Assembly (NCBI RefSeq): GCF_002729955.1
Contig: NZ_PBYA01000053.1
Coordinates: forward strand, 1 to 64,000
Source of the DNA: Salinisphaera sp.
Lineage (GTDB): Bacteria; Pseudomonadota; Gammaproteobacteria; Nevskiales; Salinisphaeraceae
DNA: 64,000 bases
Reading direction: 5' to 3'
Every line of letters begins with the position of its first letter. The first letter of the stretch is position 1. The notes beneath the pieces are model-generated. The model was not told where the DNA came from. It ran no database searches and saw only the letters and a list, made by a program, of their open reading frames with translations. Below are positions 16,343 through 27,006 of this stretch, one piece after another. A program made the position numbers and the translations under genes.

Positions 16343-16368
16343 ACCCCTCAAGCGCCCGTGTGGCCTAG

Positions 16369-16632
16369 GGCGTGTCGTCATAAGATAAGGCGGCGCATCG
16401 GCGGCCAAGCCGCGGCAAGACAAGGCATCGCGAGCGTCGCGTGGTTGTTCCACGTAAGCGAGCGATAACGATGGATTGCCGGGGCTTGGCCGTCGACCCG
16501 TCGGGTTGCCCGCGCCGGACGCGCCATGCGGCGTTGCGGGCCTTGACCGTGGCGCGCCACGCTCGGCGGCCCGCGCCTTGCCTGACACGCCCGGCGCGGG
16601 CAATGCGACGTCATATCTCATGACGACACGCC
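16369..16632. mobile_element. MITE-like element with CTAG target duplication
   Basis: This 264-bp non-coding segment has terminal inverted repeats: the first 34 bases match the reverse complement of the last 34 at 28 positions, with the outer 13 identical (GGCGTGTCGTCAT). It is flanked on both sides by CTAG (16365-16368 and 16633-16636), as expected of a 4-bp target duplication. CTAG/YTAR targets are known for the IS5 superfamily. It has no convincing ORF, so it would need a transposase in trans. The right CTAG contains the flgJ stop codon TAG. It separates flgJ from flgK within an otherwise tight gene run. Confidence 0.8.
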
Positions 16633-17721
16633 CTAGAAAAGACGGCTCAGATCAGCGCCTTCGGCCCGGGCGAACTGCGCGGGTTCAGAGGCGGGCGCCG
16701 GCATATCCGCCGGCAACGTCTTCATGATCGAAACCAGCTTGTTGGCATAGGCAGGATCAGTGGCATAACCGCAGTTCTGCAGCGCCCGCGCGGCGTGTTC
16801 GGCCGTGGGTGCATCCACCACCGGCTTGTAGCGCGGCGACTGGGTCAGAAGGCGGGCGTAATCCGAGAATGCCTGCTCGTAGGAGTCGTAGGCACGGAAT
16901 TCGGCCTGCGTGGTATAGCGCTTCGAGCCGGCATATTCGGTGGTCGTTACGCGGGCGGCATCGCCGTCCCAGCCGGTGGCCTTGATATTGAATACGTTGA
17001 AGCTCGGACGGCCGTCGGCACGTGTGATTTCGTGTTTGCCCCAGCCGGTTTCCAGGGCGGCCTGGGCAAGAATCAGACGTTTCGGAATGCCGGTTTCGCG
17101 GGCGGCGACCGCAGCCGCGGATTCCATGCGATCCAGAAAATCGTTCACGTGATCCGGCAATACGGCACGGCGTACAGTTTCCGAGGCCGAGACTGAAGCC
17201 GAGGCCTGAGTGTCGGCCACACTGCGGCGCGGCGATACCGCCTCGTTCACGGCCGCCTGCAACGGCGGACGCGGAAATTCCTTGCGCGCCAGATCGTCCG
17301 CCGGAGCCTTATCGGCCCGACGTGCTTCGACCGGATCCGAGGCCCGCAGCGGCTGCGGCGTGGCGTTCGGAATCGAGGCCAGGAAGGAATCCACCGAATC
17401 CGCGGGCGCGGCCGAGGCACTGCCCTTGCCCTGCAGCTGCTGGGTCAACATGTCGGCCAGACCGATGCCGCGCTGCGACAGCGTCTGTGCCCATTGCTGA
17501 TCCATGAGCGACTGATACATTTCCGAGCGCTGGCTGTTGAGCAGGCCGCTCTGCGGAATCGCGTCGCGCATCTGCTTGAGCATTTTCTGCAGAAAAACGG
17601 CCTCGAACTGCTTGGCGGCCTCCTTGATGCCTTCATCCGGCGAGTTGCGCGCCGAATACTTGAGCTTGGAGACGCCATTCATGCTCAGGGCGAAATCGCC
17701 GGTGTTGCCTGCGCCCGTCAT
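16633..17721 (-). CDS. flgJ: Flagellar rod-assembly protein/peptidoglycan hydrolase FlgJ
   Basis: This 362-aa two-domain protein is the bifunctional type. An N-terminal rod-capping domain spans about residues 25-95 (FEAVFLQKMLKQMRDAIPQS). A variable Ala/Ser-rich linker follows, then a C-terminal glucosaminidase domain from about residue 205, with the catalytic Glu in QAALETGWGKHEI. It bores through peptidoglycan so that the rod can grow. The ATG directly abuts the flgI stop. Its TAG stop lies in the CTAG target of the neighbouring mobile repeat, so the reading frame is intact. Confidence 0.96.
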   Translation of the reverse strand: MTGAGNTGDFALSMNGVSKLKYSARNSPDEGIKEAAKQFEAVFLQKMLKQMRDAIPQSGLLNSQRSEMYQSLMDQQWAQTLSQRGIGLADMLTQQLQGKGSASAAPADSVDSFLASIPNATPQPLRASDPVEARRADKAPADDLARKEFPRPPLQAAVNEAVSPRRSVADTQASASVSASETVRRAVLPDHVNDFLDRMESAAAVAARETGIPKRLILAQAALETGWGKHEITRADGRPSFNVFNIKATGWDGDAARVTTTEYAGSKRYTTQAEFRAYDSYEQAFSDYARLLTQSPRYKPVVDAPTAEHAARALQNCGYATDPAYANKLVSIMKTLPADMPAPASEPAQFARAEGADLSRLF

Positions 17722-22744: not shown

Positions 22745-23422
22745 CTAGATGATCTGGCGGATGGCGTCGAGATCGACCAGGCCCTTGTGCGGGCCGAGAT
22801 CGAGCTTGGCGCCGTTATCGCCGGCGACCACGCCACTGACATAGCCGGTCGACAACGGCTCGACCTTCACCGCCTCGCCGTTGGGCCCGACGGCCTCGAT
22901 GGCAAAGCGGTAGTTACCCTTGGTCACGACGTTGCCGGAGGTATCCGTGCCATCCCAGGAGAACGACTGCGTACCGGCCGGCTGGTCCTTGTAGGAGGAT
23001 TCGTGCACCACGGCGCCGCTGCCATCGGTGATGATGAGCTTGACCTGACTTGCCGGGCCGTCCAGGTCCATGCCGAACGGCAGCGACGAGCCCTGCTCGC
23101 CCACGCTGATGTCGTTGCCCGGCACCAGCACGCCGCGCCCGATCAGGGCACTGGCCTGGAGCTGCTGCGACTTGCCGATCTGGCCATTGATCGCGGCCAG
23201 GGTGTCGTTGAGGTCGTTGATGCCGCTCACGGTGTTGATCTGCGCGATCTGCGAGGTCACCTGCGAGTTATCCATCGGATTGAGCGGGTCCTGGTTCTGC
23301 ATTTGTGCAACCAGCAGCGTCATGAACTGTTCGCTCATGTCTTTCGCGCGGGTGCGCGACGCCGAGGTATTGGCGCTCGCGCCGCTCGACGCATTCAAGG
23401 AACCCAGAATATCGGTAGCCAT
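22745..23422 (-). CDS. flgD: Flagellar hook-capping protein FlgD
   Basis: This 225-aa protein carries the FlgD N-terminal motif FMTLLVAQMQNQDPLNPMDN (about residues 33-52), needed for export and assembly. Its C-terminal half has Ig-like and tudor-like folds (YRFAIEAVGPNGEAV). FlgD caps the growing hook and is discarded afterwards. A 101-bp gap separates it from flgE. Confidence 0.95.
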   Translation of the reverse strand: MATDILGSLNASSGASANTSASRTRAKDMSEQFMTLLVAQMQNQDPLNPMDNSQVTSQIAQINTVSGINDLNDTLAAINGQIGKSQQLQASALIGRGVLVPGNDISVGEQGSSLPFGMDLDGPASQVKLIITDGSGAVVHESSYKDQPAGTQSFSWDGTDTSGNVVTKGNYRFAIEAVGPNGEAVKVEPLSTGYVSGVVAGDNGAKLDLGPHKGLVDLDAIRQII

Positions 23423-23440
23423 AGTGATTGGACCTTGTTG

Positions 23441-23845
23441 TTATTCGCCCAGCGACAACGTCCGAAGCGCCAGCTCTTTGCCGGTATTGAGCACTTCGAT
23501 GTTGGCCTGGTAGGAACGCGACGACGAGATCATGTTGATCATTTCGTCGGTGGGATTGACGTTGGGCATTTCGACATAACCCTTGTCGTCGGCCAGGGCA
23601 TGACCCGGGTTGTATTCCTGACGAAAAGGCGCATCGCTTTCGATGACGTTGGACACACGCACACCGCCGATGCCTTCGGCGCTGCCGGCATTGAGTTCGA
23701 ACATGACCTGCTTGGCGCGATACGGCTCGCCGTTCGGCCCGGCCACGCTGTCGGCGTTGGCCATGTTGCTGGCCGCCACGTTCATGCGCTGGGCCTGGGC
23801 GGTCAGCGCCGAACCCGCGGTGTTGAAAAGATTGGAAATCGACAT
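23441..23845 (-). CDS. flgC: Flagellar proximal rod protein FlgC
   Basis: This 134-aa protein has the normal family length. Its N-terminal rod motif is [20 protein letters not shown] and its C-terminal helix contains [20 protein letters not shown]. It forms the proximal rod with FlgB and FlgF. A GAGGGATAA ribosome site lies just before the ATG. Confidence 0.96.
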
Positions 23846-23871
23846 TCTTATCCCTCGTGGTTAGACGCTGA

Positions 23872-24294
23872 TCAGCGCTCGGGCTGCATGGCGGCGCGCA
23901 GACCCTTGATCTGCGAGCCGAGGATCTGGAGGTTGGCGCGGTAGTGAACAGCGTTGTTCATGAATTCGACGCGCTCGACGTCCATATCCACGGTGTTGCC
24001 GTCCAGGCTCGGCTGGGCCGCATTGCGATAGGCCAGCTGGGTGCCATCCAGGCTGCCGGGGCTGGCCGCGCTCATATGCCCTGCCGAGGTGGTCTTCAAC
24101 GCCACGGCCGGGGTGGCGTTATTGCCGGCGCTCCCGAGTACGCGGTCGAGTTCTGCCCGGAAATCGAAGTCCCGTGCCTTGTAACCGGGCGTATCGGAAT
24201 TGGCGATATTCGCCGACAGCACGTCCTGGCGCTTGTCGCGCAGATCGAGTGCCTGTTTATAGAAACTCAGCGATGCTTCGAGTCGATCGAGCAT
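23872..24294 (-). CDS. flgB: Flagellar proximal rod protein FlgB
   Basis: This 140-aa protein is the first gene of flgB-L. It contains RQDVLSANIANSDTPGYKAR near residues 26-45, the rod-family signature, and a C-terminal helix. I chose the ATG at 24294 because GAGGGGAG lies 8 bases upstream. An ATG six codons earlier has no ribosome site and lies inside that motif. It is divergent from flgA; the 178 bp between them should hold both early promoters. Confidence 0.95.
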   Translation of the reverse strand: MLDRLEASLSFYKQALDLRDKRQDVLSANIANSDTPGYKARDFDFRAELDRVLGSAGNNATPAVALKTTSAGHMSAASPGSLDGTQLAYRNAAQPSLDGNTVDMDVERVEFMNNAVHYRANLQILGSQIKGLRAAMQPER

Positions 24295-24472
24295 GGTGGC
24301 TGCTCCCCTCATGGCCTGCAGATGGTTTTGCGAGGCTCATACTAAGAGGGCCTACGGCAAGGCCATGAGCAGAACAGGCACCAATTTGGGCTCTAATTCA
24401 CCGGATGGTACGAACACGGCCGTCCGTAGAATTCGCCAACACAGGATCACCGCCCATACGAGCCACGACCGC

Positions 24473-25576: not shown

Positions 25577-26038
25577 ATGAACGACCCCTTCGCGATCAAT
25601 CTGCAACAGCATCACGACGCCCTGGGTGAGTTCATGACCGTGCTCGACAAGGAGCAGGCGTTGTTCACCGAGGCGCCGGTCGCCGTCGACGCGCTGTCGC
25701 GGCTGACCGAGCGCAAGGCTGCCCAGGCCAAAACGCTTGAGCAGCTCGACGGTCAGCGTCGGGCGATGCTGGCCGAGCGCGGCTACGATACCGGCCGCGA
25801 AGGCGCAAGCGAACTGGCCGCGTCGCTGGGCTGCGACGCCATCTGGCAGGCGCTGCTGGAACGTATCGAAGCGGCTCGTACGCAAAACCAGATCAACGGC
25901 CTGGCCATCGGCACCCGGCTGGATCACACCAACCGTACGCTGAGCTTCCTCCAGCGTGAGACGGGCCAGACGCTGTACGGGCCGAACGGGCGCACCCGCG
26001 CCTACGGCCCGAACCATAGCCTGCGCAACGGCGTCTAG
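25577..26038 (+). CDS. flgN: Flagellar export chaperone FlgN
   Basis: This 153-aa helical protein has the FlgN pattern (EFMTVLDKEQALF, then LTERKAAQAKTLEQLDGQR, and later NQINGLAIGTRLDHTNRTLS). FlgN is the chaperone for FlgK and FlgL in the cytoplasm. The C-terminal tail ends GPNHSLRNGV, a motif type seen in many FlgN proteins. Its TAG stop (26036-26038) forms part of a CTAG that borders a mobile repeat, with no loss of coding sequence. Confidence 0.93.
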   Translation: MNDPFAINLQQHHDALGEFMTVLDKEQALFTEAPVAVDALSRLTERKAAQAKTLEQLDGQRRAMLAERGYDTGREGASELAASLGCDAIWQALLERIEAARTQNQINGLAIGTRLDHTNRTLSFLQRETGQTLYGPNGRTRAYGPNHSLRNGV

Positions 26039-26323
26039 GAAAGCTCTGCACAACCTGTCGCGGTCGCGCCGGCGTGCTTTGCGTGTGGCTGGCGAGCAAA
26101 TGTGCGCGTAGCGTGCCAAAGCCAATAACAAGCGCTCGCCAGCGCGCCTTGACAAAGACCAGGCGCGCGCAAAGCCGGCGGCCCGAAGGGGTTCGGCCTC
26201 ACAGACGCCGCGACTGCGTTGTGGAGCTTGACCTGCACATGAGGCAGGCGCTGCGCTCGCACGCCTTGCCGCATCGTCTGCGAGGACTCGAACGCGAACC
26301 GCGAGAGGTTACGCAAAGCTTCC
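26039..26323. mobile_element. MITE-like element A with CTAG target duplication
   Basis: This 285-bp non-coding segment is flanked by CTAG at 26035-26038 and 26324-26327. Counting the CTAG, the left 30 bases match the reverse complement of the right 30 at 25 positions (left GAAAGCTCTGCACAACCTG, right reverse complement GGAAGCTTTGCGTAACCTC). This is a second family, unrelated in its ends to the element at 16369-16632, but with the same target. The left CTAG holds the flgN stop. No transposase ORF is convincing. Confidence 0.75.
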
Positions 26324-26396
26324 CTAGCCGACGTTGCATTTTCAGCCGGGCAACGCAATGCCCGGCCCGGCTGCTATTCGCAGCCGCCTCGCCCGA

Positions 26397-26586
26397 CTAA
26401 CCCTGTACTACCTCTCGCGGATCGAGCTCGCATGCTCGAATGCGTCGATACAGCGCGTTCGAGCACAGTGCTTGACGCATTGGCACGCCCCGCTCCGCAA
26501 AGCGGTAGCGGCGCGTTTGACGCCGAACCGCTCGCGGGCCGCGGCTTAGCACGCGGCACTACCGCGCCAGGCCGTGCAGAGCCTGC
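26397..26586. mobile_element. Degenerate or partial copy of the same MITE-like family (B)
   Basis: The right end, read on the minus strand from the CTAG at 26587-26590 (CTAGGCAGGCTCTGCACGGC), matches the left end of element A at 25 of 30 bases. The left limit is uncertain: a weak partner CCCTGTACTACCTCTCGCGG begins at 26401 and matches 14 of 20. The CTAG at 26587-26590 contains the flhE stop codon. The 69 bp between A and B contain a perfect 8-bp hairpin (GCCGGGCA/TGCCCGGC, 26345-26366) that could help terminate flgN transcripts. Confidence 0.5.
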
Positions 26587-27006
26587 CTAGCGGAAGTTGA
26601 CCATCAGACTGAGCGCCCTGCCCTCGAGGGGCGCACGCGCCGCGGGCGGGCCATCGAGCAGAAACTCGAACCGGAACGCGGTCGCGACCGGCAGGCCGGC
26701 GAACGCCATGCTCTGCCCCTGCGCATTCGCGGCATCGATACAGCGACCGCCCCCGCAAAGCCGTACCCTGAGCTCACGCGGCCGCCAGCCGGCAAAGCCG
26801 TAGCGCCATTCGACACGCGTGATCGCCTCGCCTGCCAGCGGCGTATCCCGGTCCGGCGATAGCCGGTCGCTTTCATAGCGAAGCCCCTGCTGGCGCAGGG
26901 TGGGCGTCTGGCTTTCTGCAATCCAGCGCCCGGCCGCCTGGGCCGGCAGGCATGCGCCGGCGACCAGCAGCGCCAGGAGCAGCACGCCACGGCGTTTCGC
27001 GCGCAT
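26587..27006 (-). CDS. flhE: Flagellar protein FlhE
   Basis: This 139-aa secreted protein has a signal peptide (GVLLLALLVAGACLPAQA). The mature part matches enterobacterial FlhE by eye: TRVEWRYGF, LRVRLCGGGRCIDA with the conserved Cys pair, GQSMAFAGLP, and the terminal LSLMVNFR, which parallels NQVIVNYR. FlhE is a periplasmic protein reported to act on proton leakage through the export apparatus. It lies 10 bases after flhA, as in E. coli and Salmonella. Its stop lies in a CTAG bordering a mobile repeat. Confidence 0.88.
   Translation of the reverse strand: MRAKRRGVLLLALLVAGACLPAQAAGRWIAESQTPTLRQQGLRYESDRLSPDRDTPLAGEAITRVEWRYGFAGWRPRELRVRLCGGGRCIDAANAQGQSMAFAGLPVATAFRFEFLLDGPPAARAPLEGRALSLMVNFR

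Follow-up and report, generated by a model that had tools for sequence, protein, structure and literature searches.

Among short dispersed elements of bacteria, MITEs are commonly seen as insertion sequences that have shrunk and whose bodies do not last long, and ERIC measures 127 bp. MITEPsy1 of Pseudomonas syringae is, according to the accessible part of its description, a transposase-less element of 100 nt with IS5-type ends (GGAAGGTCTGAAAAAGCC) linked to ISPsy2, which duplicates a 4-bp target, CTAG or YTAA, and transposes in vivo (PMC3189936). Element A of the present study is like MITEPsy1 in lacking a transposase, in its IS5-type ends and in its 4-bp duplication. Going by the description, it is set apart by its length (293 versus 100 nt) and its two-armed body, a feature that the accessible part of PMC3189936 does not describe for MITEPsy1.

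Three other systems, likewise known to us from the accessible parts of their reports, invite comparison. ERIC is a short dispersed element of Gammaproteobacteria with a folded transcript and with some copies at gene 3' ends (PMC2229807, PMC10969869), and our element, whose transcript would fold likewise, resembles it in these respects; the termini of ERIC, however, are TA with 7-bp end repeats (PMC2229807), whereas ours are IS5-type ends of about 25 bp in YTAR, which places the element outside ERIC. The CIR of Caulobacter and Brucella, conserved between these genera, also has two long hairpin arms, joined by a linker (PMC2229807), but it is alphaproteobacterial, carries a GANTC motif and is tabled, with a footnote, as lacking the terminal inverted repeats that are present here, so that our element is not a CIR either. 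The R0 and R2 repeats of Pseudomonas fluorescens (PMC2718517) resemble our element in that their ends also occur on insertion sequences and in that they lie preferentially between convergent genes.

Short and without a transposase gene, with terminal inverted repeats shared with IS5 and a 4-bp YTAR duplication, the element is filed here as a variant of the IS5-type MITEs. A folded body that spans a class and carries different ends is not described in the accessible parts of PMC3189936, PMC2229807 and PMC2718517, nor was a description of this element found in the literature searched, which covered few subscription papers, so that a prior description is possible. In this element it is the body that is old and conserved, and the ends that vary. 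It offers a test case of whether the fold of a transposon interior is selected, and by what, and its covariance model allows annotation in a large share of Gammaproteobacteria.

Copies at flagellar stop codons

The DNA analysed, hereafter the window, is a stretch of 64,000 nucleotides from Salinisphaera sp. Two covariance models of the body were used, R1, built from 31 rows, and R2. The features discussed are the following.

16365 to 16636, plus strand: third, more distant copy, between flgJ and flgK (R1 E 9e-19, R2 E 8e-32)
16633 to 17721, minus strand: flgJ (TIGR02541), TAG stop within the right CTAG of the third copy
25577 to 26038, plus strand: flgN (Pfam PF05130), TAG stop within the left CTAG of A
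26035 to 26327, plus strand: element A, complete copy, 293 bp including flanks, CTAG at 26035-26038 and 26324-26327, bounded by terminal inverted repeats some 25 bp long or longer
26049 to 26313, plus strand: R1 body match in A (E 4e-66)
26077 to 26178, plus strand: arm 1 of A, first long hairpin of the predicted fold (approximate)
26180 to 26299, plus strand: small middle hairpin (CCCGAAGGGG) and arm 2 of A (approximate)
26328 to 26396: spacer between A and B, 69 bp
26397 to 26590, minus strand: element B, an eroded copy in inverted orientation that falls about 100 bp short of A; its outer end is CTAG 26587-26590 and its inner end CTAA 26397-26400
26406 to 26576, minus strand: R1 match in B (E 4e-21; R2 E 1.4e-9)
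26587 to 27006, minus strand: flhE (Pfam PF06366), TAG stop within the outer CTAG of B

A preliminary description of this DNA had reported related ends at 26035, 26327 and 26590, with two pairs matching at 25 of 30 bases. CTAG-anchored 30-mers bear this out: 26035 (plus) matches both 26327 (minus) and 26590 (minus) at 25/30, and the latter two match each other at 21/30, against 20/30 for the best other pair among all 62 such 30-mers on both strands of the window, the third copy excluded. All three ends are real, but the count is four, as B has a decayed inner end at 26397 (CTAA) that becomes visible when B is aligned with other copies, its 30-mer match being just 10-13/30. The outer CTAGs do hold the stop codons of flgN (26035-26038, plus) and flhE (26587-26590, minus), as had been stated, and Pfam confirms both genes; the third flagellar stop said to lie in such a site is that of flgJ, which ends in the right CTAG of the 16365-16636 copy. 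The inverted repeat of A reads CTAG-GGRAAGCTCTGCAYAACCT. B is 72% identical to A across 146 bp, and the third copy, with its own two ends 26/30 alike, has an end type unlike that of A (GGGCGTGTCGTCA...). R2 at E <= 1e-8 matches only these three places in the window, and the two ORFs overlapping A and the one overlapping the 16365 copy have no Pfam match (E 0.01). A, B and the 16365 copy belong to one superfamily of many copies without a transposase gene, bounded by IS5-type terminal inverted repeats and flanked by a 4-bp YTAR, often CTAG.

The view of A as one complete element and of B as one eroded copy is supported by the alignment of genomic copies, with others of which, in its own genome, A aligns end to end. 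When at most three mismatches are allowed, the 20-base end has one match in the window (shuffle mean 0.00) and 51 in the 3.84-Mb own genome, against 0 for a reversed-pattern control. The whole region gives 67 blast pieces in that genome, itself included, and 15 other places there align with A over at least 260 bp at 76-84% identity. Copies of A detectable by blast are present in 10 of 41 genomes (the own genome and 40 relatives), namely the own genome, eight more Salinisphaera and G023, which represents another family of the order. An exact search for a 20-base end in an 84,980-species collection, from which records of the own genome may be left out, returned 26 stretches, all in the Salinisphaera assemblies UBA1666 and UBA6602. 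The possibility that there were no other copies anywhere is excluded by these many dispersed copies in the own genome and in relatives. That the repeats are ordinary intergenic terminators or chance repeats, and no mobile element, would suit a position between convergent genes, but this is refuted by the scattered copies, dozens in number, that share their ends and are flanked by duplicated targets, and we consider it extremely improbable. The end sequence had no exact match in viral contigs; phages and complete E. coli genomes gave none by blastn with one class copy as query, and A matched plasmids twice, at E 0.3 and 0.9. In G006 and G009, many end matches fall within the first or last bases of contigs, and the element seems often to be what interrupts these Salinisphaera assemblies.

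Relatives provided element-free loci, although no strict empty site. In the flgN-flhE regions of six relatives the body model found nothing, and no CTAG empty site was seen in them. The closest relative read, G004, whose FlgN is 87% identical, has 68 bp between the flgN and flhE stops, both of which lie in TTAA, fitting YTAR. In the window the stops are 548 bp apart, of which the 69-bp spacer is not part of either element. From this agreement in length, 69 versus 68 bp, A and B were probably inserted one at each edge of a normal short intergenic region, and the spacer is probably what remains of the original flgN-flhE intergenic DNA; the two sequences themselves are not alike, their best ungapped match being reached by 437 of 500 shuffles. 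Hairpin-based termination of both genes, also envisaged in the preliminary description, gained no support, with one terminator-like site against 0.8 expected, and a promoter reading was likewise dropped, none being found. The genes on either side of the third copy, flgJ and flgK, are both encoded on the minus strand, which argues against strong termination unless flgK has its own promoter. The copies may affect flgN, flhE, flgJ or flgK.

The coincidence with stop codons has a simple account, which extends to flagellar and other genes alike. CTAG is depleted about threefold in the window (31 versus 88 in shuffles), and a simple gene call places gene stops at 16 of these 31 sites and a TAG stop in 21 of 55 window genes. 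Among the 21 own copies examined, 12 carry, on one side or on both, a stop that terminates an open frame of 140 codons or more. In three of them (L075, L038 and L040) this holds for both ends, which is the pattern to be expected if a single YTAR site is used by two convergent genes; gene calls and open frames came from simple scripts, so that the counts are approximate, GC-rich DNA giving long frames by chance. Active seeking of stop codons was dropped as an explanation, the share of copies at stops (12/21) resembling that of CTAGs at stops (16/31). Target choice is explanation enough, because CTAG is rare and often itself a stop. As YTAR is duplicated on insertion, neither gene loses its stop; an element could enter a stop codon, including one that two convergent genes have in common, without damage to the genes, and such copies would persist.

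IS5-type ends and the search for a parent

Copies flanked by the non-palindromic duplications TTAG/TTAG and CTAA/CTAA show that the duplicated target is a 4-bp YTAR, more than TA. Among 86 distinct copies, 42 have YTAR on both sides, 29 of them with the two sites identical, 30 have it on a single side and 14 on neither, a count to which a search procedure favouring YTAR contributes.

One and the same body carries different ends, which match different IS5 subfamilies. The end of A is found within one mismatch in 3 of 369 gammaproteobacterial genomes (the own genome, G146 and G164). G146, from another genus, has a full IS5 element with ends TAGGGAAGGTCTGCACAAC and CTAG on both sides, whose 327-aa transposase scores 355 bits with NCBIfam IS5_4 (cut-off 140) and whose ends agree with those of A at 16/20. 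The IS5_3 elements of Salinisphaera, about 860 bp long and inserted in CTAG or YTAR, have other ends (GGGCGTGTTG...), and these are matched by other copies of the body: those of G005 at 18/20 with an IS5_3 element of the same genome, one of G002 at 19/20 with a G006 element, and the third window copy at 15-16/20 with a G011 element. Because unlike IS5_3-type ends match crosswise at 15-17/20, assignment inside that group is loose and not exclusive; between A-type and IS5_3-type ends the match falls to 5-9/20. In G164, another gammaproteobacterium, a stretch of about 200 bp with IS5-type ends TAGGGAAGCTCTGCATAAG (L206 1503-1709) is not matched by R2.

The parental transposase for which the preliminary description proposed a test did not come to light: no intact transposase element with the ends of A is present in the Salinisphaera loci read (14 genomes, mostly drafts; flanks of 30 of 45 PF01609 hits and of 19 of 19 PF05598 hits). 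Used as a query, the G146 transposase found only two broken relatives in Salinisphaera. A broken relative at L216 470-950 (G011 contig 149), 49% identical over 100 aa, adjoins an end, CTAGGGAACCACTGAACAAC, that is 13/17 like the consensus of A, and may be what is left in Salinisphaera of the missing parental group. The own genome has two PF01609 hits, an IS5_3-type element and a 489-aa transposase-like frame, and neither qualifies as the parent of A, the ends of the former being different and those of the latter, CCCAGGCTGTGTGAAAACG, not fitting. The 489-aa frame with these ends lies around 23142-24359 of G000:C54 (L124, L157) and occurs in G000, G003, G006 and G008; G010 has a related frame of 425 aa. 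A pair of facing ends 2.2 kb apart on own contig 18 was also rejected, no recognisable transposase ORF being seen when the translations were read by eye.

As far as tested, the body is something other than IS interior sequence, since the model did not find it in 6 loci with IS5 elements and blastn yielded nothing there except one 22-bp hit outside the IS. The element seems to borrow the enzymes of other elements. Judged from sequence, IS5-family transposases would act in trans on the transposase-less copies and move them, and ends may have been exchanged between IS5 subfamilies on one body. Our main reading, to which we give a probability of about 0.75, is that of a transposase-less IS5-type element that is moved in trans, duplicates its YTAR target, often CTAG, and carries a conserved folded body.

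Shape and spread of the body

The body of about 250 bp is a conserved two-armed fold, a dumbbell, in which the end repeats form the closing stem around arm 1, a small CCCGAAGGG-type hairpin and arm 2, the latter resembling the reverse complement of arm 1. RNAalifold applied to 28 copies gave 65 pairs, 15 of them with double changes. Of 41 copies, 32 entered alignment A2 and 31 alignment A3, those with loop insertions or deletions, diverged ones and one near-duplicate being omitted; in A2, which covers the near-family, the result was 18 of 38 pairs, with 0 of 500 shuffles as high, in agreement with the larger alignment A5.

A5 comprises 60 rows from R1-found and earlier loci, 58 of them distinct when identical rows are taken once; being restricted to R1 matches with E <= 1e-26 in loci most of which were best hits, it leans to high scores. 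In these 58 copies, all from the order, double changes occur at 71 of 77 pairs, 94.9% of cells are paired compared with 64.4% in shuffles, and the covariation score is 0.745, against 0.192 for shuffled and at most 0.104 for slid versions. A5 was fitted to a model, whereas A7 was aligned without one; both exclude reverse-strand matches, and A7 also excludes L267 and L274 (own order) and L286 (a short locus). The 28 class copies in A7, all from outside the order and including Halomonas sp. PA16-9 and an Azotobacter chroococcum plasmid, have 107 pairs with 90.0% of cells paired and 87 pairs with double changes, while slid versions reach at most 42.5% and 58.

By R1, the body is present in 62 of 85 genomes of the order and in 20 of 21 genera. 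R2 finds it at E <= 1e-6 in 100 of 369 class genomes, or 96 of 365 outside the order, and with the stricter filters used finds none in the other 269 at this threshold. The folded body hence recurs in about a quarter of the sampled gammaproteobacterial genomes, joined to different transposon ends. Rfam 15 contains no family that reaches its gathering threshold in window positions 25900-26750 (E up to 5) or in 10 loci (E up to 1), and ten further loci at gathering level gave only RNase P and a tRNA outside the element. The best sub-threshold hits are to microRNA families, the strongest being mir-1397 in L231 (35.9 bits versus 70, E 3.5e-4), which we take as a chance likeness of long hairpins.

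Pairing, arm motif and possible roles of the fold

Around variable stems, arm 1 and the backward-read arm 2 have in common a motif CAAGG...AACGC(C/A)G. Since arm 2 is reversed, each strand has the motif in its first arm. Across Gammaproteobacteria the body has come through extensive paired changes, and its ends differ and match different IS5 subfamilies. In our main reading it is the folded single strand that would be preserved, and the CAAGG / AACGC motif in either arm would be a putative contact site for a common factor; with the motif in the first arm of each strand, the element could work in either orientation. We further propose, tentatively and at somewhat less than even odds, that a single folded module, apparently older than its host families and reaching as deep as the class, pairs with whichever IS5 ends are available, and that its arms present a conserved host-factor motif on either strand. 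If this is true, the element would be a portable parasite or tool made of structured nucleic acid, whose identity lies in the fold rather than in the ends.

The kind of pairing bears on how such a fold might act. Of 4,430 pairing cells in A5, 4,055 are Watson-Crick and 150 are G-U, a wobble share below what we would expect of an old RNA fold. Among the 58 distinct rows, G-U outnumbers A-C by 46:8 in arm 1 and by 64:35 in arm 2, while the end repeats stand at 36:34. For the two arms pooled, the motif strand gives 221:81 and the opposite strand 289:222, a modest asymmetry that hints at a single-strand role, although not decisively. The modesty of this asymmetry, the low wobble share and the scores of R1 and R2, high on the reverse strand as well, count against our main reading.

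The arms might act as RNA in transcripts entering from one or the other flanking gene, for instance as 3' hairpins that process, stabilise or insulate and are bound by a host protein through CAAGG/AACGC. Insertions at gene ends, including those between convergent genes, agree with such a role, as do the motif on the first arm of either strand, the excess of G-U in arm 1 over the near balance in the end repeats, and the fold z-scores (-5.5 for A, -17.3 for L231 and -12.0 for the third copy). The low wobble share speaks against it, and in arm 2 on the plus strand 47 of the 64 G-U cells come from one fixed pair, to be set against 35 A-C. Terminator-like sites, moreover, do not exceed shuffles, and the third copy either leaves the flgJ-flgK operon unblocked or flgK has a promoter of its own. 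We hold an RNA role to be possible, with the odds leaning away from it.

Alternatively, the fold could act as DNA, hairpins on the lagging strand or a cruciform joining the ends or attracting a host factor and so favouring transposition by a range of IS5 transposases, many in number. It would fit this account that the end repeats form the closing stem, that pairing is mostly Watson-Crick and that one body is found with several kinds of ends. Conserved motifs, on the other hand, are unnecessary for bringing ends together, and the body is absent from the 6 IS5-bearing loci tested. A DNA role is conceivable, and our confidence in it falls short of an even chance.

The low wobble share also leaves room for correction at the DNA level, by template switching in palindromes, which could produce a portion of the covariation without selection. 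The fold might then have no function, an inverted-duplication founder having been widely copied while template switching keeps the stems complementary. Up to four Watson-Crick types per pair with few wobble intermediates would be explained in this way, but conservation throughout the class extends to the arm motifs and to the small CCCGAAGGG-type hairpin, and arms 1 and 2 of one copy, at a mean identity of 44%, do not seem to convert each other. We regard a fold without function as unlikely.

Individual copies depart from the common shape. The arm 1 motif of A itself is partly decayed. In L072 and L265, both from G008, the middle hairpin is greatly lengthened, for example to CTTTTCTCGC-GTT-GCGAGAAAAG, and still paired. 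A subfamily, seen in L015, L042, L021, L050 and L084, has an extra CCTTGAAA...TTTTCAGG-type hairpin in arm 2.
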